This document shows positions 1 to 60,500 of a stretch of DNA of 64,000 nt, piece by piece. Every line of letters begins with the position of its first letter. The stretch's first letter is position 1. The notes beneath the pieces were generated by a model. That model saw only the letters and a list, made by a program, of their open reading frames with translations, was not told the DNA's origin and ran no database searches. The translations under genes were made by a program, and so were the position numbers. Source of the stretch: Tubiluchus corallicola (taxonomy: Eukaryota > Priapulida > Priapulimorpha > Priapulimorphida > Tubiluchidae); assembly GCA_030141605.1 (NCBI GenBank), contig JAQGDQ010000036.1, positions 682,001-746,000 on the forward strand. Reading direction: 5' to 3'.

Positions 1-406
1 GTAATTGATTATTTTAAAGAGTGTAAGTTGCTATTTTGTGAAGAGCTTTCTTAAAAGAGGTTTTGGCTAGCTTTTTTTAATGTATATTACTGGAATTATG
101 CTTACTAAAGCTTCATAACTAAATGATAAAAGAAACTCGAAAACATTTCCTTGATTTTACAACTAACTAACCAAGCAAGTAATTGTGCTTTAGATTATCT
201 TTGATTTACTGATCACAATTTGATAACAACTGAGATACAGTAGAAAGAAATTTATGTATGGAATGATTACTTAGATTTTTTACTTCTTCCTGTTGGCAAA
301 TGTATGCCTGCAATTCTATTTCTGTCATCATTAAGAAATTACTCTCATTTAAAAACTGGTATTCTAGTGCTCACCTTACACCTTTTCACTGGTTTAGCTC
401 TTTCAG
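1..406. other. Intron end upstream of first visible exon
   Basis: AT-rich sequence with no recognisable exon or repeat. It ends in the pyrimidine-rich acceptor at 393-406, so it is read as the 3' part of a PRPP synthase intron. Confidence 0.5.
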
Positions 407-507
407 TCAGCAAGGAAGAGGTGTGGTTAATGTGCCACAGCAGTACGGAACAGTTGGCGAAAAACATAGTTGAGAGGTGTGAAATTGCTGCTCAAACTAA
501 TGAATTG
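407..507 (+). CDS. PRPP synthase exon (first in window)
   Basis: The acceptor TTTCAG ends at 406 and the donor GTAATT begins at 508. The exon enters with two bases of a split codon and ends in phase 0. It encodes KEEVWLMCHSSTEQLAKNI and on to TNEL, aligning with the N-terminal strand and helix of plant PRS4 (KKKVHLFYCLECEELARNI). The real start codon must lie in an exon left of the window. The in-frame extension back to 304 is intron sequence. Confidence 0.82.
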
Positions 508-3500
508 GTAATTTGTTTTATTTATTCATCAATAGCTTTGAGACATTAATGACAAATGAGTAAAAAGTTCTGTCTTTATTTTTATATAAGCCAAGTGAGC
601 AATCATCGTGGAAACATTCCTTTTAGTACTTAGTATTAAGAATACTTATTAGGTTTCATGTGAACAAATTAGTTTCTCAGCTTCGCTGTAGTACTGCGTG
701 CATATAAACAAGTATACTAAGCTGACAATGACTTATTGCAGTGCAAGTTTAAAAAACTTTTAATTTTAAGCTATTTTTTTTAATTTTCATAAGCTCACAG
801 TATTCATCCTTGCTACATCTTTGTACTTTTACATACACATCTTGCTTTCTTAGATAGTAGCCTTTCAGCTTGGTAATATTTGTCTTTGTATGGCACTCGA
901 AATCTACATTTGCTTAATATCAAGTAAATTAATTTCTAAGTTCTCGTAGTTTGGGCTAGTATGTTTTTAGATTTTATCTTGCATTCTAGCTCTGACATAG
1001 AGAAAATTTAATTTGTGATTTTAAAAATTAATACGGATTAACTCTAATATTCCAGTAGTTTAATAATACTACTGTCTTAGTTTTTTTTCAGAATGTCAGG
1101 CGTGCAGTTTCTTTTAAAAAGATTATTCACTGGGACCATTTTGCTGATGGTTTTCCAAATATATTTATTGATGACGTGAAAGAAATGGCAGGAAAAGATG
1201 GTATGTAGACAATTAAACATGTGGTCAAATTTTATACTGCATAATCATATGAAACTTCGGGCAGTTTTAAACACTCTTTGACATTCGAGAGTAACAGATA
1301 ATTATCTAATAATTTTGAATTGCTTTTTGGCTAATTATTATTATTACATCTATATTTTTGATCTTTTATGGTTTCATGATTTTAGAAAATATGTTTTTTT
1401 CTTTGTTCAAGTTGTGTTTCTTGCCAGCTTTCATTCACCACAAGTGATATTTGAACAACTTTCCTGTCTGTATGCCATACCAAGGTAAGAGTTTCACTGT
1501 TGTTGCCTATTATAGGTTAACTGTTTTTTGCCACTAACTGAAATTTTCATCGATCAGCCTTTTCAGAATTTTGCTACATGCACACGCAGTTGCAGTAGGT
1601 CAATGGTTATATGTATCATTAGCCTGGAATGCCCCCACCTATACTATCAATGGTCTCGTACTAGCATTTAACAATAGCATTTAAATCTATAGTCAATAAT
1701 TGCATGATTACATTTCGAGTGTCAACAATAGGACACCTGACTCAAGTTTTTTGTACAAAATTTACTAGGCTGATAGCTAACTGAAATTGTTTATTTGTGA
1801 TCTAATCTAATCTAATTGTTTCTTTGTTTGAATGTAAATCGATTACGATACTCTTATCTGAATAGCATAACTAAATAGCAGAAGCAGATGGTGGGTGTAA
1901 ATAAATGTTTCTTCAAACACCATAACAACTAAAGCTTGGTGTAGTCCGTGCGCACAAACCATTACTAACGTTGCTAGGTACAAATAACCTTTGACCCTCT
2001 CAGGATTATCATTAACTGCTGAAACTCGGAAGCTTACTTATCATTGATGTGCATAAGTAACACTCTAACCAACACAAAATAAGTTTGAAATTCATTTTTG
2101 TATTATGTTTTGGTACATTGTACAAGAAGATTTTAATGTTCCTATTTGTTACATTTTTTCATGTTACAATGTTCTAAAATGCATGACTAATTTAAAAATT
2201 TTCTGCTTTTGCTATAGATACCTGGCTCGATCATTCTGTGTTATATTGCCCTATTTTGCAACAGGCATAATGGAAAAAATTGACAAAGAAGGACAGTGTG
2301 CTACTGCAAAGGTAATGTAAAGAATATTTTGTCTTAAATAGATCATCATTAGCATTAGTAAACTAATTATACACTTTTAGATACCCCGAAGTCACTAATT
2401 GCTAACAATATTTTAATTTATGCAATATTAAGCGTCGTAATGACAAGTTTAAGTTGTTCGTTTATAAGCATTGCAATTCTGTTTTTGCTTAGACACTGGC
2501 AACACTTTTATCACATATACCTCTGACAGCACGAGGACCGGCTACAATTGTGATGTTTGACATACATGCTTTGCAGGAGAGGTTTTATTTTGGTGAATCT
2601 GTGATACCTAGGTATGCTGTACAAACTACTTCTTAATTTATGCAATGACTTCATAGATAATCCACAGTCATGGTCAGTACATGTATTACATTACAAGATC
2701 TCGGACTTATTCTATTCACTTATTCATTGATAAATTCCTTATACATAGTATCACAAAATGTGTTTAATTTTATTCACTGTGTACTCTGGGACAGAATAAT
2801 TAAAATTGCAGGTGCTGCCCCCATTTGTATTCTAGATGAGTTCGATCAACCAGGATATTCGAACTACTTGAACTGATTTCACTACCAATAGTGCATATCT
2901 TGTGCCTCTTCTAATGACTTGTGTTAGACCTTTTATAGTTTACATGGTCTCAGCAAGGAAAGGTCATTCTTTATGTAACTTCTAAATCAGGTTGTAAAAA
3001 GAGACTATGAATAATTATTAATGTTTTATATAGATAATTACATATGCATGGTTACTACAGTGCAAAAATATAAACTTGGCTAACTAGACTTTTGTTTTTT
3101 TACAACTCATCATTAGTCCAGTAATTATAAAGTGTACCACTAGGAATGCTGCAGGACATTCCAAAAAAGCAGTTTCAAACTTGTGATTTGTTTTTTTGTT
3201 CATAAGTTAATGATAATTTTGACTATTTTTTTATTGTAACTTGTAATGAATCTGCAACTACTTAGACTTACTTTTGCCATTAGATTTGTGTCTAACTTAG
3301 TAATAAATTTCAAATGCAATTTTTTTAAGTCTATCTACCATGTAGGCTTCACAGTACAATAAAATACTGGCAGCATCTTCTTGTGATGGACATAATTAAT
3401 GCTCTATACTTGTTTAATGTTCACAAAATGATTAGAATTTTAGTAAAAGTTTGAATTTTCGTTTTGTAAGGAAACATTTTATCACTATCATGAAGCATAA

Positions 3501-6500
3501 AACACTAAAGTGCATAGTGATGAAGTTTTTGTGAATGCAAGTGAAATTTACTATTGCAAATTTTGAAGCAAAAATCGCTGATTAAGCACAATATCTCAGA
3601 CTGGCTGTGCGGTACATTTGTAATAGATATTTAACTCATATGATGACGAAAACTCACAGGCTAAAATGATGCATAGCCTGAAAAATTTCCTGTTTTTTTA
3701 ATGTAAGTGTGCTACTAGTACAGCGTCAGATCGTATAGAAATTAATAATTTTAATTAAAATTTAATTTAATAATTTTTAAATAGTTAATTGTGACAATGA
3801 GTTAATACAGGAAACAATTATTATTTTTTCTAGGCTAGTCTCAGCCATTCCACTTATACAACAAAAGCTAAAGAGTTTTGAAGCTAGTGCGTGGTGTATT
3901 GCATTTGCAGACGCTGGTGCCAAAAAACGATTTTCCTCTTTCTTTATCAATGACACAATTATAAGCTGTATAAAAGAAAAAGTCAGCAATGAACCTATAG
4001 TTAAACTTTCTGAAGGTAATTTTTTTTTTTAAATGGTAAAACTAAAGTTTAATAATGATTCCAGTAGTTACTGGTGAGTTAGTCGTATCAAGGCGGATAA
4101 TGACAACACATTCAGACGAATTGTCGTTACTTAACGATTTTGACTGGTGCTGTAATTATATACTGTTGTTAAAGGAAAGTATGATGTTTTTCAGTTCCTA
4201 TCTTGTTTTGAAAGAATGGTAAAAAAACCCATAATAATACCAAAACGTTTCTGATAGTTAAATATTAGCTTAGAAGCTTAGTTAATGGTTGGCAAGCTCA
4301 ATAAGAAAGACATCACAATTGAACATAATTTTTTAATTGCTGGAATGCGCATTTTGCAAAAATTAAAATTGAAATGCAGTGCTACTGTACAGCACTAATT
4401 ATGGTTTCACCAACTCTGCAAATTTGAAGTTTAAAAATTTAAATTCTAACTTTACCGCTGTGCGAACATGAGACTTCACTATAAACATGCACTATGTCAT
4501 AACTGACGTGATGAGATACAATGCCTGTTTTTTGTACAATGTATTTCCGAGATTTTTTAAGTAGTGAATGGCAACATAACAGCGAAAACAAAATTACGCT
4601 TATGCAGCAATAATTCTTTCATGTGACTTGTTCGTTAAGTCAACAAAGTAAAGAAACAATATTTTCTCCTTCAGTATTTTATATCTTAAGTCATTTTACA
4701 CCATGGCTTAAAATTGGGTCCTGTTTTCCTTTAATACAGCTTAAGCCATTTTGAATCTAATAGTGTAAATAATTAATAATTTGAGGCGCAGCTTAAGCTC
4801 AACATTACCAGACCAACAACACTGTAGTTTATAAAACATTGCTTTTTAAATTTTACCTCTTACCGTTCTTAGAACAGTGCTGTACATGAGAAATTGTTCA
4901 AAAATTGCACTAGAATTGTAAAATGTTGAACAGTATCATTTAGCGATAAGTTAAGAAAACTAATGAATAAAATGAACATGTCTGCGATCAGCTTATGTAT
5001 GAGCATTTTCAGGATTACTGCTGCTGCTTGCTGACACACAACGTACGATTTCTTCATAATATAATAATACTACTAATATGCTTCAAACATTGTTCATGTA
5101 ACTATGAAGCAACCTGAAACTACTAAAAATAAAGCATGCCATGAAATTTAGCATTCACAATAAGTAAGCATTGAAGTACTGACTAATTTCAATACTTACT
5201 GAAGTTATCACTGTTTTACCATTTTGATACATAACTTTATCTGTTTCACCCGCATAACCTTGTGATTTTCAATTGACTGGAGACATTTTTAGGTTGCTAA
5301 GTTACAAACCAGCAATAGAGCAGTAGCTAATCAGTATGTTTATAGAACTCCATATTTGGTTGCTGGCCTTTGTTAAAAAATTTTCTGGACCTATTTCATT
5401 TTCACACAATATGTAAGCTAGGCCTCACTTCCCACTTACGAAATATTTTGGCTGTATCCCAAAGCTTTGTAGGCAGTCAGAATTTAAAAAATTAGTAAAT
5501 TTTAGTAACTTGTCAAGAGCTAATTGTTAATTGTTAACACTCAGAGGTCACTGTCTGATTACTCCTTCCAGTGCTTCAATGTCAAGGTCACTATCTGATT
5601 ACTTCACCTACTAGTGTTTGCAATCACGAATTAAATTTTACTTGCATAGTGTCTTAGAAATACAATGCGAAGTACTTGAATCAGCAAATGAACAAATTAC
5701 AACTGGTACTCTTTTCAAGACATCCTTTTCAGTACAATAAAGATAATAATGGGTAGGCCCGTAATATGTGCTTCCAGTGAACTTATTTATTATTAAGTAT
5801 AGAAGTACCGATTGTTCTGGTTATGGGAATGACATTTTAATGTACAGCACTTATTTTCACAGCAATAAACTTAGCTGGAGGAAAGTGATACTCCATCAGA
5901 ACTAATAAAGACAATGTAGCAGAGAATACAGCCAAAAGTTATTTATCTCAGTATTTTCTTACTAATTTTAGATTTATTGTAGGCAACCCTATAGGCAAAC
6001 ATGTACTCATAGTGGATGATTTGGTACTGACTGGCAAGACATTAATTGCATGTGCAAAGGTAAGAGATGCTTAGAAGATATACAAAGTCTGCATTCTCAA
6101 AAAGGTAAAATGTTATCTAAGTTCTTTTACTCAAATCACAAAAAATAATTTCTGTAGTTAAGATCTTATCCAAGTATGCATTCATCAAAATCTCAGAATA
6201 CAAAAATCTTACAAAGAATAGTTTTGTGAAGCTTTTTTTGTAAACACACACATATATATATCTATGTACAGTATGACACTATTGTAGCTAACATGGTTTA
6301 CTGCGTATACATGGGTAATGCAAACTCACAAAAATGAACGAACGTTCATCACTTATTTAACTCATATAATAGCTTTGAATGCAGCATACTTGGTTATTGC
6401 GTATTGCAGACTTTTTGTCAGGCCTCATTGCCTACATTACTATATCTTTGTAAGTTTTTATGCATACTTTACCTTAGCCTGCTATTTCTAAATTAAATTG

Positions 6501-9364
6501 TAGTTAAATTTAACTCATTATTCCTGGTGCTGCAAATAAGTTGTTAGGCAATTGGCATGTTGCATTGGAGTTGTTAACCTGCATCGAAAGGTCATTTTGT
6601 GTTCTAGCTGTATGTATAAAAACAATGAGTCACTCAGTGGCTTGGTAATTTGCTATTTTACGTACATACACTGGCAACGCATGAAATGTTTATTGATTGT
6701 TTTTTATTGAAATCACAAAAAATATATTTTATTGAATTTGAATATATGTGCTGCAAAGTACTTGATACTTCTTAACATCTTCTAAAAGTATTTTCGTCGT
6801 TACTCTTCTGTTAAAACATGCATGGCCATTTAGTAGTCACATACATATGATTTGTCGCGTGTGCTTATAGAGTATCTCAGTTATAGGAGTAGAATACTTT
6901 TTTCTGGATCCTTAGCAAGTTTGCTAATAGGATGTTATGTATATATCATGCCCAGGATCTGATGCTCGTGCCTCAACAATAGATTTTCCCTTAACTGCGG
7001 CAAATGGCATCACCGTCAAATCTTATAGAACACGAAACACTACCTTGAATTTGGGTTTTCGTCTGTATAACTGGGAATTCGTGCTAACTAAAGTGTCTCA
7101 GCTCTAACTGGGTGCTGATTTTCTCAGAGGTAATGGTTTAGTGCTAGAATGCACCCAATACAATGCAATGTGCCATTTTTGACATGATACATAATTTGTC
7201 TCATCCGTCAATCCATGTGACAGAGGTGGTAATTGCATCAAAATTTGTATGGCATAGCCTTAACAAACAGGGCAAAAACATGCATACCATGTCAAACTGC
7301 TGAAGCGCATCGTCACACTTCAACTGTGCAAGGAGAATTTGCTTCACCAGCTCAATGTTTTGATCATGTACACATAATTATAGTGGGTCTGTTACCAATT
7401 TCCCCTGGATGCTCCTATTTATTTACGGTTATTGATCGTTTTACTAGATGGCCGGAAGCTGTTCCAGTGCCATCCATGGACACCAGTACTTGTGCTAGGG
7501 CCTTGATCACACACTGGATTTCTCACTTCTCGCCACTGGACATGTCTTCAGATAGAAGGGCCCAATTCACATCAAAATTGTGGCAGGACATGTCTAACAT
7601 CTTAGGCAAAAATTACACCACACAATGGCATACCATCCTCAAGAGAATGCGATCTTGGAGCGTTTTCATCGCCACTTGAAGGCATCGCTGATGGCGCGCT
7701 TGGTTGGTTCTTATAGGTTAGACCAGCTTCCTTGGGTGCCATTCGGAATTCGAACAATACGTAAAGAAGACTTAAAATGTTCATCTCCAGAACTAGTTTA
7801 TAGCGCACCCTTGACAGTACCTGGTAATTTTGTCTCCACAGGTGATAGTCACCAAAGTCAAGCAGATTTTTTGACGCATCTCAAGGAATACATACGAAAA
7901 ATGTAGCCTGCAAAAACTTTCTCCTATGGCACAAAGGCCACATTGGTAACCAAGGGTTTACATACAAGTGAATATGCATTTGTAAGGCGAGGAGCCATTT
8001 GTCAGCCTCTACGGAAACCATATGAGTGGTCATATAAGGTACTTGGATGTAAAGAAAAGACATTTCTGGTTCACATGGGTGGTTGCCATGAGTTGACATC
8101 AATTGACCGATTAAAGCCTGCTTGTGTTGAGAAAGCTTATGCATCAGATAGAACTTTAGTACCAAATCTAGGCTGACTTGAGCAGAAGAGGCGAAATAAT
8201 AAAAAACAGATCTCAGTCTGCGAAGATGGGTGCCCAGCTCACACCGAAGCAATGCACGTAAAATATGAACACCTCGAATATTTGTAGACCTCTGAACTAC
8301 CACATGTTAATATTGATAGAAATTCAGTTAAAGCATAAATATGACCAAAAAGGTTCATTATTGCTGCTCATAACTAGTGCTACCGTATAAGCTAAAACAA
8401 TTTGATATCATGTGGAGTTTAAATATTCCAGTAGATATCTACAAGCAGAAAAGTGAAACTTGACTTCCATGTAAACTTTATTGCTATTGTTTGCTTGACT
8501 GTTCGTCTGCACATTTGTATTTTTTTGGAAGTAAAATTCTTAATTGTCTGCTGTTGGAAGACTATGATGGAGCATAATAAGAATTGTAATATGTTGAGAA
8601 TTTGTTGATTAGTCACCTTATTCCCCCGGAATGTCGAAGAAATGAGAGGAAATTCGTGTTTGCTTAAAAATCTGAGCATATTATCCAGATGTTCAAGTAG
8701 TCAAAATGTTGCTGGTTGTAACATGTATGACTGGAAAAAACACCAGAAAAAAAATTGAATATTTCCAGTAATAAAAGGTGTGATTCTTTGAATTTATTTT
8801 AAAGGTTATTCTTGTGAACTAAATAAAACACAGACTTAGCCACAGTTTTTGGCCCACAAAATGTTAAGTGTAGGTAGTAGGTGATAGGTATTAATTTTTT
8901 GGGCAGATATGCAGTGACCCTAGAACAAAGTTAAAAATTGCCGCATGTGGCCCAATGCCAGCTCTACACAACTTGCTGTGTCAAATTTGGGCCAGGATGC
9001 ATTGCTGAGAAATTAGTGGCATAGTGCTACTTGTTGAACTGCTGAAAATATTCAAATTTTTTTAAAAAACTTACAACTGTCTTTCTTGTAGTGTGAATTA
9101 ACAACTATACACAATGCCAATTTATTTTTGTAGGTACTAAAGAAAGCTGGCGCGAGGAGCATTAGTGCCTATGTAACACATGCGGTCTTTCCGAATGAAA
9201 CTTGGAGGAGGTTTACTGATGGTGATGTAGTATTTGAAAATTTCTGGATTACTGATTCAATTCCTCATGCTGAAGAGATTTCAAAACACAAACCATTCAA
9301 ACTGCTCTCTATAGCCAGTGTAATAGCTGATGTACTTTGGGGATTTGATTTGAAATCAGTTTGA
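407..9364 (+). CDS. Class II (plant-type) ribose-phosphate diphosphokinase, 8 exons, 5'-partial
   Basis: Makes PRPP from ribose 5-phosphate and a nucleotide diphosphoryl donor, feeding purine, pyrimidine and NAD synthesis; probably cytosolic. Eight exons (407-507, 1092-1200, 1412-1484, 2218-2311, 2493-2611, 3834-4015, 5983-6059, 9134-9364) join in consistent phase to 327 residues plus a stop. All introns are GT-AG. Seen in order: HFADGFPN (exon 2), SPQVIFEQL (exon 3), LPYFATG (exon 4), DIHALQERFYF (residues ~148-158, exon 5), DAGAKKRF (~191-198, exon 6), the PRPP-binding loop DDLVLTGKTL (~237-246, exon 7), and AYVTHAVFP followed by FWITDS (exon 8). This order and spelling follow plant PRS3/PRS4, recalled at about 337 residues, not the class I PRPS1/2 family (DLHASQ, DDMxDTxGT). 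Only a short N-terminus is missing, left of the window. Identity is firm; enzyme kinetics are inferred from the family. Confidence 0.93.
1092..1200 (+). CDS. PRPP synthase exon
   Basis: A long T-rich acceptor ends at 1091 and the donor GTATGT starts at 1201; the exit phase is 1. It encodes the segment containing HWDHFADGFPNIFIDDV, equivalent to the plant NWRSFADGFPNLFINN segment. The shared FADGFPN block is the clearest early sign of the class II family. It is too short to stand out in an ORF scan. Confidence 0.9.
1412..1484 (+). CDS. PRPP synthase exon
   Basis: The acceptor ends in TTCAAG at 1411 and the donor GTAAGA starts at 1485. Encodes FLASFHSPQVIFEQLS and then LYAIPR, matching plant FLASFSSPAVIFEQIS and LLPR. 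It splits an arginine codon (AG|A) with the next exon. Confidence 0.9.
2218..2311 (+). CDS. PRPP synthase exon
   Basis: Acceptor GCTATAG ends at 2217; donor GTAATG starts at 2312. Encodes YLARSFCVILPYFATGIME and on to CATAK, ending in phase 0. LPYFATG corresponds to plant LPFFPTG, and to the YxR/ppR helix region in class I enzymes. Confidence 0.9.
2493..2611 (+). CDS. PRPP synthase exon with DIHALQERFYF motif
   Basis: Acceptor TTGCTTAG ends at 2492; donor GTATGC starts at 2612. Encodes TLATLLSHIPLTARGP, then VMFDIHALQERFYFG. DIHALQERFYF is identical to the plant class II motif and sits where class I enzymes carry D-x-H-A-x-Q, which contributes to nucleotide and metal binding. Splits an Arg codon with the next exon. 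Confidence 0.93.
3834..4015 (+). CDS. PRPP synthase exon with DAGAKKRF
   Basis: Acceptor TTTTTTCTAG ends at 3833; donor GTAATT starts at 4016, exit phase 1. Encodes LVSAIPLIQQKLKSF, then WCIAFADAGAKKRFSSFF, and ends IVKLSEG. DAGAKKRF aligns with plant DDGAWKRF, which lies by the pyrophosphate-contact loop. Confidence 0.92.
4016..5982 (+). other. PRPP synthase intron 6, nothing recognisable
   Basis: About 2 kb of AT-rich intron. No coding similarity, terminal repeats or tandem array were seen; short ORFs here are chance. Confidence 0.5.
5983..6059 (+). CDS. PRPP synthase exon with PRPP-binding loop
   Basis: Acceptor TTTATTGTAG ends at 5982; donor GTAAGA starts at 6060. Encodes NPIGKHVLIVDDLVLTGKTL and ACAK. 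VIVDDLVxxGxTL is the signature of the type I phosphoribosyltransferase fold. The final position before TL is Lys where plant enzymes have Gly (SGGTL); see findings. Confidence 0.93.
6955..8176 (+). mobile_element. Gypsy-type LTR retrotransposon relic: protease fragment joined to integrase
   Basis: It sits in the last PRPP synthase intron, sense to the gene. 6955-7152 reads as the C-terminal half of a retropepsin (LTAANGI, then LGADFLRG after an in-frame stop at 7105-7107). From about 7176 the zinc-binding start of integrase appears (IHNLSHPSI, later CIPCQ). 7233-7630 gives the catalytic core with DRFTRWPEA and DRRAQFTS. After a frameshift near 7620, 7625-7906 gives YHPQENAILERFHR, carrying the catalytic Glu. 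7926-8176, in another frame, reads as the C-terminal domain ending DRLKPA. Stops and at least three frame changes show it is dead. The expected reverse transcriptase and RNase H between protease and integrase are absent, and no LTRs were recognised. Confidence 0.88.
8177..9133. other. Intron remainder after the Gypsy relic
   Basis: AT-rich, with no further coding similarity. The retrotransposon's 3' LTR would be expected here but no paired copy is visible in the window. Confidence 0.4.
9134..9364 (+). CDS. PRPP synthase terminal coding exon
   Basis: Acceptor TTTTTGTAG ends at 9133, and the TGA stop is at 9362-9364. Encodes VLKKAGARSISAYVTHAVFP, NETWRRF, FWITDS, FKLLSIASVIADVL and a short tail ending LKSV. 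It matches the plant C-terminus (VLAAHGA, AYVTHGVFP, FWITDS, LSLAGSIADAL). No convincing AATAAA was found close downstream, so the 3' UTR end is unknown. Confidence 0.93.
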   Translation, partial: VLKKAGARSISAYVTHAVFPNETWRRFTDGDVVFENFWITDSIPHAEEISKHKPFKLLSIASVIADVLWGFDLKSV

Positions 9365-10640: not shown

Positions 10641-11363
10641 CACCTAACTTAATATATGTGTGCTTGCAGAGCAAAATCACCCATAAGCTTTTCTAGATAC
10701 TCACATAACCCGAATCTCCATTTCATGAGGATCATCTTGATGCCAAGCTCATCGCTCTATGTTATTTCTAAGCTGAGATAATCCATATTGAAATTTTGAG
10801 GTGCACGCTACACACTGAAAAACCTAATTTTGAGAAAATCGCTGTCAAAGTTAGCCATTGTTTTTTGTCGCGTCTGTACAAAACACTTAGCAACCGTACG
10901 AAAGTGTGGTTGCTATGGATTTTACAAGAGCAAATTGAAGTTACATTTAAATCCAGTAGATGGCTCTTCCTGACGAAGAAATGGTCTTGTCAACAGAAAA
11001 GACCCGAAGCAAAATGGCTGCTTCCACGAGCTACAATTGCAGTTAGAAAATGCAAGTTTTTTTTTGCTATTGCAGCACTAGTTTCTAAAAAGAAAAGTAG
11101 GTAAGGAGTTGTAAAATTAGGTTTCTGGCATTTTTTGGACATTTTCCTGATAATTTGATGCTGGAATATAAAAGTTCAATATATTTAGCATCTGTTTTCA
11201 TAAAAAAATAAAAAATTGACATTTGACCAAATTTTTTGTGCTTTCTACTTTGAAGCATCGTAATGTAGTTTTAACTATGCCGACTTATAGCTGGTTTTGG
11301 TTTGCAAACACACATATAGACTAGCCAAAACCTGCAAAAGAATTTTGCGCATAAACTCGCAAC

Positions 11364-11729
11364 AACAAGCCACACAACCACCTACACTACACCACATCAA
11401 CCCTGCCACACCACTCACTATATACCACCCACACCATACCATAACACAACACCATACCGCAACACCACACAACCCACACCATAGCACACCGCCCACAACA
11501 CCCTCCACACTACACCAGCACCACCCACATCTCGCCATTCTACGTCACACCACCTACACACTACCGTCCCACCGCATTATCCTCACCACATCACCCGCAC
11601 CACACCACCAATATAACGCCACACCACCCAATATTACACCAGACCCACCACACCACCCATGCCGCATTCAGCAACACCACACACTCCCTATCACCCTACC
11701 ACACCAGCGCAACAACCACCACATCACAT
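11364..11729. repeat. A/C-only low-complexity tract
   Basis: About 365 bases in which the + strand is nearly free of G and poor in T, built from irregular CACC, ACCACA and CCACACC words. The open frame across it (Thr/His/Pro-rich) is a by-product of composition. It ends at a GATGATGATG microsatellite. Confidence 0.85.
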
Positions 11730-11749
11730 GGTGATCATGATGTCAATAA

Positions 11750-18900: not shown

Positions 18901-18940
18901 CAAGTAATCTGGCTATTGTGCATCTCTCTTTCTGACTCTC
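12976..18940. other. Intergenic, no gene recognised
   Basis: Six kilobases of AT-rich DNA. Around 14100-14420 the sequence is richer in CpG words, but no exon or promoter could be defined. An open stretch at 18629-18907 was considered and not accepted. Confidence 0.4.
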
Positions 18941-18941
18941 A

Positions 18942-19024
<83 letters not shown>

Positions 19025-19091
19025 TCTCCCCTCTGTCTCCCTCTCCATCTCTCCCTCTCCATTTCTCTCTCTCTCTCTGTCTGTCTGTCTC
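18934..19091. repeat. CT/GA microsatellite
   Basis: Pure (CT)n runs for roughly 70 bases to 19020, then degenerates into CTCTCC and CTGT variants. It is a homopurine-homopyrimidine tract. Arg/Glu-rich and Ser/Leu-rich frames over it are artefacts. Confidence 0.95.
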
Positions 19092-57500: not shown

Positions 57501-60500
57501 TGCACAGATTTAATTTTACATTAAATTGCTTTATTGTTAGTATTATTTTATACGTATTGGTTGAAAGTGAAATGTGCAGTTTGTTGAAATCTTCTGATTT
57601 GTTAAAGGTATTTGCGTCACTTTACAATATCCGAAGTCTGGCTGTAGTCTGTAGAACGGAGCAGATTAACTGAGAATGAGTTGACTCTTTATGTGTTTTC
57701 ACCATATTTTATTGTTGTAGTGTGCAATAAAACTTCCAAACGGGCCCAAGTATGTTTTATATGCTTGTCTCATTTTCTGTTAAAGTCTTAAGAGGATATT
57801 TTATCTGTAAAACCAATGAAACAGCAATAGGTGACTCATGTTACTAGCATTTTAAAGGCATCTCTTGAAAAAAATAAACGTTACACACTTTGTCCTACAA
57901 TTAATGGTTTGCCTGTTATTTTTTCATTCTAAATTGTCACCCAGTTTGGAAGCAAACCATAGTTTACTACCACAGTTTTCATGATTTCCAAATTAATGCT
58001 GATTCGCTTTCGTAATCGGTCTTTTACATTCACACACCAAGTTTCACTTTATATTTTACGTAATATTGGCAACTTTGTGGACTAAATAAGTGTTCGATAA
58101 GTGACTGAGATACATGTAATACGCTAACATTAAAACAATTCCTCACAAGACTGTAGACATGGAAATGAACACAAAGTTAAAATTGTACAAGTCTTAAGTA
58201 AATTGTGCAGTTTTGCTAGGTAGGTGTTCTCGAAAGAATTGCGCTGGAAATTTCACAAAGTTATCCAAATGTTTCAAAATCTACAAGCTGTCTTAAGCAT
58301 TGCAAACCTATTGTTACGTATTTCATTTTTATGCTGTTGTACAAAAAAATTTGTTATTGCATGAAGCTCAAAACATTTCTGAAGCAACAATGGTGAAAGT
58401 ATGCAAAAACTTGCAAATGAATTGAGAGTTACCTATCATTTAGATTTAAAGATATAGTTTATTGTACTTTTTTGCAAGGGTTGTACTGCTTTGTAGTTTA
58501 GGTGACACTAACTGCAGGAACCATTGCCCAGTAGAAGTTTCTGTACTTTATGAGAACTTTTCTTCTTTGATTTAACTTCATTTGTCTTGGGCTAAACTTT
58601 TCTTCAAACAACTCCTTACTTAAGTGTACTTGCAAAGTTTTGTAAAAGATACATTTTTCTTAAAAGAAATTGTAACTGAATCTGATCCACGAACACTTCT
58701 TAGTAATGAAAATTTGTAGACATTTGATGCAAAATCTTAAACGAGATCTTAACGTTTTTGATTAAGGCCCAGACAAAAATTCTCCCTACTGTGAGGTACT
58801 AATGGTTCAGACTTGAGACGAGAGAAGAAATTTTCTGAAAACTGCGACTAATTATTTATTATATGATTGGATATTAAATAAATGTAATTCCTTGCTTAAT
58901 TTTTCCACCAAAAATTTCAAATCAAATTATACCTAATAATTGTCAGGCAGTAATTCAGTCAGTCAAATAAAGAAAAAAATTTCAGAAACCACTGAATTAT
59001 GCTTAGTTCCCCCTTCCCTGTCAAGTGTTCTTTTTTTTGTTATAATGTTTCTCTTGAGACGAATCTCCATTTTCTTCTATAATGCCATAAAATTATACAG
59101 TGTAATTACCTGGTACACTACAGCTTACATCAGTTTTACATTCTTATATAGGGAAAATTTAGCCAGTGATTCTTACCTGCTTAGTCAAATGGACTCAGAC
59201 CAGTATGTGCCCATATGGACCATAGCAAATTTTAATCAAGTGAAAAAGCTCACATCGGATATCTCCTTAATTGTAGATGTTTTGCGGCGTAAGTCATATA
59301 GAATTTATGAACAAATTGTTAAAAATTTGCGGGAAAAAAGTTGCTAATGCATGAGTTCAAACATGTACATTTTTAGTAAAACAACTATTTTTGTCAATTT
59401 TCTTTTGGTTAAATGACTTGTAACATTATAACCATTTATAATGCTTCTGTATATATTACAACGTTTGTTGGTAAAATGTGATGCAAAATCAACTATTTTG
59501 TGGTATGACATGTACTTTTATTTTCAACAATTTTCTGATGAAATGGTGGTGCCTCAGTATATCACCTATTTTTTGTTGGAAATGTGCTCAAATTAACAAA
59601 TATAATATGGCCTAAACTGGACTGGAAAATTGCTACTATATTCTTGTATTTGTTTGTTCAAACAATCAGTTAAATATCAATACTCAATACTAAGAAGGTT
59701 TTTTCAACTTGTAAAGGTTTTTACTATGCTAAGGAATTTTGTTCTATTTACAGAATCTCCTTTTGTGAAGGTGGATGAAAAAGGAGAGAAAGTCAAACCA
59801 AACCATAAACGATGTGTTGTGATCCTAAGAGAAATACCTGATGAAACAACTGTAGATGTATGTGTATAAGCAAACTATAGATACCCCACTTTGTTTGTAA
59901 CTTTAAATTTCACCATCGTGTCTGCTGTCTAGCTACACATACTATTTTTAGCATCCCCATCGGTCGTCAATTCACCATTATCAGTCCTTATCGTCACTCT
60001 TCATTCTCATATGACTAACTGTCCTCACTCTTCAGCCTCATGTGACTAACCTGTTAAGTAGTGTTTGCATCCATATTCTGTACGGAAGTAATTATCTGCA
60101 CAGTTTATTACACGACGCTGATAATTCTACTGGGATAGCAAATTATTACGCATTATTATTTAAACTACTGTATTTTAGTTGTACAACTAGGGCATTGGCA
60201 CTGGCAACAAATTAAGTGTTTATCAATAGCAAGTGCATGGCAGATCAAATTAATTCATTTTGCCAAAAGGGCAAGTAGCACAAATAAAGAAAAACAAACC
60301 ACAATTTTTTTTACTGTAGAGTTTAGCCATCCAAACAAGTCACCAGCACAGGTGTCGATAAAGGGATTGTTAAATTTAACTGAACACAAGGAAAGGATGT
60401 AGATTTCATCTTTGGTGTGTAGGTCTCACTGCTCTGTGCACTGACTCTCATTGAGAAGGCATAGAAACTGAGAAGTCTAGCAAATAATGTGCCAAACAAA

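Follow-up and report, generated by a model that had tools for sequence, protein, structure and literature searches.

The window, by which we mean the whole stretch of 64,000 nucleotides of Tubiluchus corallicola DNA that was analysed, opens inside a nine-exon gene on the forward strand (hereafter A), which has eight introns and encodes a full protein of 342 amino acids belonging to the class II PRPP synthases (PRPS). Exons 2 to 9 (407-9364) contribute 327 residues with no internal stop and are bounded by AG acceptors and GT donors (Table 1). The start codon occupies C2214:681980-681982, just outside the window (21 bases upstream), and exon 1, which encodes MAHARQNVIDYFKE, was located by seeking a first exon of phase 1; it is supported by a second copy of the gene elsewhere in the genome (hereafter B), which has a matching first exon, MAGRPPFVYQNSIDFVID, of equal phase. 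Across its first 27 residues, exon 2 of A is 62.963% identical to B. An earlier, sequence-only reading of this DNA had picked out four motifs (FADGFPN, DIHALQERFYF, AYVTHAVFP and FWITDS) and an eight-intron structure. All four motifs do lie on the forward strand in open exons of A; exon 1 had been missed.

Table 1. Gene A and other features of the window, with positions counted from its first letter.
Feature	Position	Strand	Content or basis
A exon 1, 3' part	1-22	+	encodes the end of MAHARQNVIDYFKE; donor at 23
A exon 2 (SKEEVWLMCHSSTEQLAKNIVERC...)	407-507	+	splice sites, open frame
A exon 3	1092-1200	+	FADGFPN (1140-1160); FLAG region (nucleotide binding) lacking the class I glutamate
A exon 4 (VFLASFHSPQVIFEQLSCLYAIPR)	1412-1484	+	splice sites, open frame
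A exon 5	2218-2311	+	regulatory flexible loop TGIMEK; splice sites, alignment
A exon 6	2493-2611	+	active-site DIHALQERFYF (2559-2591) with the counterpart of human PRPS1 H130
A exon 7	3834-4015	+	ADAG motif and catalytic flexible loop; splice sites, alignment
A exon 8	5983-6059	+	ribose-5-phosphate loop DDLVLTGKT (TGKT 6030-6041); splice sites, alignment
A intron 8	6060-9133	+	contains a broken retroelement integrase fragment (about 7233-7903)
Integrase remnant in A intron 8	7233-8176	+	Pfam rve, 1e-9; spread over several frames
A exon 9	9134-9364	+	AYVTHAVFP and FWITDS, stop codon 9362-9364; open frame
Low-complexity stretch	11291-11734		CCACAC-rich; long meaningless open frame
Array	18923-19091		TC-rich
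La domain	58940-59347	+	Pfam La, 3.3e-17

The integrase remnant in intron 8 is an old insertion. Downstream of A, the La domain is part of a gene for a La or La-related RNA-binding protein, and Rfam and tRNA scans of the whole window came back empty.

The family of the encoded protein is given by three Pfam matches, each above its curated cut-off (Pribosyltran_N 1.7e-8, Pribosyltran 4.7e-10, Pribosyl_synth 2e-8), and by the NCBIfam model TIGR01251 (ribP_PPkin), whose cut-off of 113 bits A barely exceeds with 115.8. The closest solved structures are class I enzymes of weak similarity (best 1.3e-17), and human PRPS1, in a sequence that matches PDB 8dbc_A along its whole length, is 22% identical to A or B. 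Searching prokaryotic genomes with the pattern HALQxRFYF returned class II genes of Desulfobacterota and one Parcubacterium, while the same pattern found no class II gene on viral contigs. These bacterial proteins share the class motifs and are 42-48% identical to A and about 49-55% identical to B; their genes are intronless and, unlike A, nearly all have TGTMER and all have PD[DEQ]G and KxR.

Several features separate A from class I. In the FLAG region, where absence of the class I glutamate marks class II (PMC13252144), the alignment shows FADGFPN in place of the class I F-S-N/D-x-E. DIHALQERFYF is identical in A, B and every bacterial class II and CPR sequence that was retrieved. At the end of the alignment A lacks the class I C-terminal stretch ESVSxLF, as expected of class II, the role of the PRPS C-terminus in the filament interface being described in PMC13252144. 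It also has no RQD..K regulatory loop of the class I kind. In the corresponding TMER motif of class II, A departs from its own class as well, with TGIMEK against TGTMER in B and nearly all bacterial class II proteins; its class is nevertheless not in doubt, because the class I R96 is missing too. The tree, a check that the sequence-only reading had proposed, was built from A, B, bacterial class II proteins, class I proteins and a provisional Arabidopsis PRS4 sequence, A, B and this plant sequence being its eukaryotic class II rows. It groups A with bacterial class II and outside class I, the two classes being split with support of 100/100 by a very long branch. Within class II, A and B show no special closeness to one bacterial group, and the joining branches are long and weakly supported. 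The class split and the A+B clade both keep 100/100 when the plant row and those from CPR bacteria are dropped. An AlphaFold2 model of a bacterial class II protein (mean pLDDT 88.6) matches human PRPS1 over the whole length (Z 30.1, rmsd 3.1, 292 residues aligned), with the loop Lys/Arg on the strand pair 189-207, and the mapping of residues between the classes thus rests on structure as well as alignment. Gracilibacteria, in which TGA encodes Gly, were also seen to carry a class II-like PRPS with DIHALQERFYF; it sits on a long separate branch at 35-40% identity to the animal copies and is possibly the class IV of PMC13252144.

The second class II gene, B, has its exons between positions 212332 and 225538 of contig C448. 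Each copy was found once in the assembly, and both lie on large contigs (1.02 Mb for A and 0.50 Mb for B). Their intron phases are identical (1,0,1,2,0,2,1,0) and six internal exons are equal in length, which indicates that the duplication copied DNA and not a processed transcript. The two proteins are 66% identical and form a clade with support of 100/100, in which the branch to A (0.50) is about five times longer than that to B (0.098); among polarised changes, 38 fall in A against 13 in B (p = 6e-4). The non-synonymous difference between them is 0.22, and the synonymous difference of 0.80 is saturated, for which reason we give neither a dN/dS ratio nor an age. We also considered that A and B might be the class II subclasses 1 and 2 that predate LECA (PMC13252144), which seems unlikely given that, in a tree with these three eukaryotic class II rows, the two group together and the plant sequence stands outside. 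What is new here is that one animal has two class II copies, of which the copy in the window is fast-evolving and has a changed active-site arginine.

Twenty alignment columns show a single residue throughout the remaining rows of both classes; B differs at none of them and A at two, both within substrate-site motifs. One is P170 to A in the PDxG motif, which reads ADAG in A and PD[DE]G elsewhere, and the other, within the catalytic flexible loop, is R196 to K; the codon in A is AAA (Lys, 3979-3981) and the conserved Lys equivalent to K194 is encoded at 3973-3975. The loop defined by K194 and R196 of human PRPS1 (KxR) accordingly reads K-E-K in A and K-I-R in B. Beyond these columns, A has P at the second catalytic-loop Arg conserved in class II, carries I and K in the TMER motif of the regulatory loop, and has Lys in place of the Gly of the ribose-5-phosphate loop (TGKT), a loop that in bacterial class II reads T/S-G-G/A-T except for one CPR sequence with TGNT. 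B retains the usual residues at the positions changed in A. Kept in A are the catalytic His (H130), the first catalytic-loop Lys, the D of PDxG and, in the ribose-5-phosphate loop, DD and the last T. Since TGKT is also present in HPRT-type phosphoribosyltransferases, a Lys in this loop could be compatible with binding of ribose 5-phosphate.

Whatever we infer about the biochemistry of the two proteins starts from gene structure, class, duplication and residue changes, all of which are observed. With its full class II active site, B is likely a working enzyme, which would move the diphosphoryl group from a nucleoside triphosphate onto ribose 5-phosphate and be free of class I allosteric control. 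For A we lean, by a little over even odds, towards a protein that makes little or no PRPP and would serve as a partner subunit setting the assembly or activity of B. More tentatively, A may be a pseudoenzyme born of duplication, a class II counterpart of the PRPSAPs that joins and tunes its active sister.

About one chance in three, in our judgement, belongs to a different role, in which A would be an active enzyme with altered kinetics: a second class II PRPP synthase, with Lys replacing the catalytic-loop Arg and perhaps a different donor or tissue range. The replacement keeps the charge and is milder than the change to Ala tried in human PRS1. There, R196A had no detectable activity, consistent with R199A of B. 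subtilis (PMC4363470), and this complete loss speaks against the second-enzyme reading, as does the invariance of the Arg throughout the other PRPS sequences compared, of either class. In favour of that reading count the residues retained in A, namely the first Lys of the catalytic loop, the catalytic His, the DD and the PDxG Asp, but further active-site positions are changed and A is a fast branch. The K-E-K loop lowers the claim of A to be an active enzyme, without taking it away. The nine-exon open frame and the low non-synonymous difference suggest constraint, and we argue from them that A is still a selected protein. The same observations make it very improbable that A is a decaying pseudogene: its fast branch, its altered active-site residues and the transposon fragment within an intron could all be read as decay, but the nine exons contain neither stop nor frameshift, splice sites are standard at eight of eight introns, and non-synonymous change has stayed at 0.22 where synonymous change is saturated.

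The host is an animal, as seen from 82 Wnt exon matches in the 343.5 Mb assembly against none in 14 prokaryote controls; one of these exons aligns over its whole length to human Wnt-5a (234 bits), a match that led us to discard a sponge as the possible host. A search of the assembly for COX1 gave no match. Several of the Wnt genes are clustered within about 75 kb (C1030:434830-508314), and one Wnt gene recurs with identical scores on about 13 contigs (C2, C14, C457 and others). The genome also has an intron-bearing class I PRPS1-like gene whose exons, taken singly, are 67-88% identical to human PRPS1 and which the assembly contains in five identical copies (contigs C45, C2048, C2100, C2197 and C2212). 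Such repetition of PRPS1-like and Wnt exons with identical scores means that the assembly is redundant in places. An intronless PRS with a single open frame at C1677:254133-255203 was considered as a bacterial gene, a reading that was dropped: it is an animal PRPSAP2-like gene, 71% identical over 358 residues to a provisional human PRPSAP2 sequence. It is perhaps a retrocopy and the sole PRPSAP of the genome. Five more intronless PRS genes (on C755, C1761, C903, C2294 and C197, contigs of up to 874 kb) are of bacterial-type class I and point to bacterial symbionts or contaminants within the assembly. While these genes and the 49-55% identity of bacterial class II proteins to B might suggest that the class II genes came by recent horizontal transfer from a bacterium, perhaps a symbiont of the Desulfobacterota, or from DNA of plants or algae that the sample contained, we give this the smallest chance of all, given the eight introns common to A and B on their large contigs, the lack of any specially close bacterial group on joining branches that are long and weakly supported, and a published spread over most metazoans with conserved splice junctions (PMC12238573).

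We put at roughly 0.85 the probability that A is an authentic nuclear animal gene of class II which was inherited vertically, lost in vertebrates and duplicated at the DNA level. The sequence-only reading had suspected a plant-type class II gene in an animal genome, and had named a contig of non-animal origin as one thing that would undo it. That a true animal gene encodes a class II PRPS is borne out by the 100/100 split from class I, the Wnt-bearing genome and the eight introns, and the Wnt exons and intron-bearing class II genes also argue against a non-animal contig. Of the two origins which that reading had offered, an ancient gene kept in invertebrates and lost in vertebrates is the published view (PMC12238573). 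The term 'plant-type' is a historical label only: identity to bacterial class II proteins is about as high as to the provisional plant sequence. A shares the class motifs of plant PRS3/PRS4 (spinach, Arabidopsis, and rubber tree PRS4; PMC5412264) and is about 47% identical to the provisional Arabidopsis PRS4 sequence, but in the plant proteins the catalytic loop is still KxR. It is in plant enzymes that independence of phosphate and use of several donors were measured, and absence of ADP inhibition is a further mark of class II. Because A is the diverged one of the two duplicates and its otherwise invariant catalytic-loop Arg has changed, these properties carry over to it less safely than the sequence-only reading assumed.

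The presence of class II PRPS in an invertebrate animal is itself already known from two studies. The first (PMC12238573, Nature Communications 2025) found class II in most metazoans, Craniata excepted, dated the class to LECA, noted splice junctions common to holozoan class II genes, reported that most holozoans have, as here, a class I set of PRPS1-like and PRPSAP2-like genes in addition to class II, and called class II duplication relatively rare. The second (PMC13252144, a preprint of June 2026) obtained the class II enzyme of Branchiostoma in pure form and showed PRPP synthesis, proposed a bacterial origin of class II before LECA, for which Thermodesulfobacteria scored best as the source, and listed class II pseudoenzymes, Priapulus among them. 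T. corallicola resembles Branchiostoma lanceolatum (CAH1247366.1; PMC12238573, PMC13252144) in combining, as a non-vertebrate animal, class II with PRPS1-like and PRPSAP2-like genes of class I. It differs from amphioxus, compared here by description, in having two class II genes, one of which lacks the catalytic-loop Arg, where the amphioxus enzyme was shown to be active. A is also like the class II pseudoenzyme of Priapulus caudatus (PMC13252144), an animal class II protein with changed catalytic residues, but in Priapulus the gene was reported to have been converted directly to a pseudoenzyme, while here the change follows duplication and the intact copy B is retained. Finally, PRPSAP1 and PRPSAP2 are likewise duplicated PRPS with changed catalytic-loop residues, proposed as regulators of an active sister; they derive from class I, however, whereas A is of class II descent and much less degenerate.

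Class II in animals corrects the older view that class II PRPP synthases are plant-specific (PMC5412264), a correction which had already been published. To this the locus adds a class II duplication with one intact copy and one with an altered catalytic loop. If A and B are indeed partners, their association would contradict a published speculation, namely that only class I enzymes form mixed PRPS complexes. The pair thereby allows a direct test of whether class II enzymes, like those of class I, gain regulatory partner subunits.
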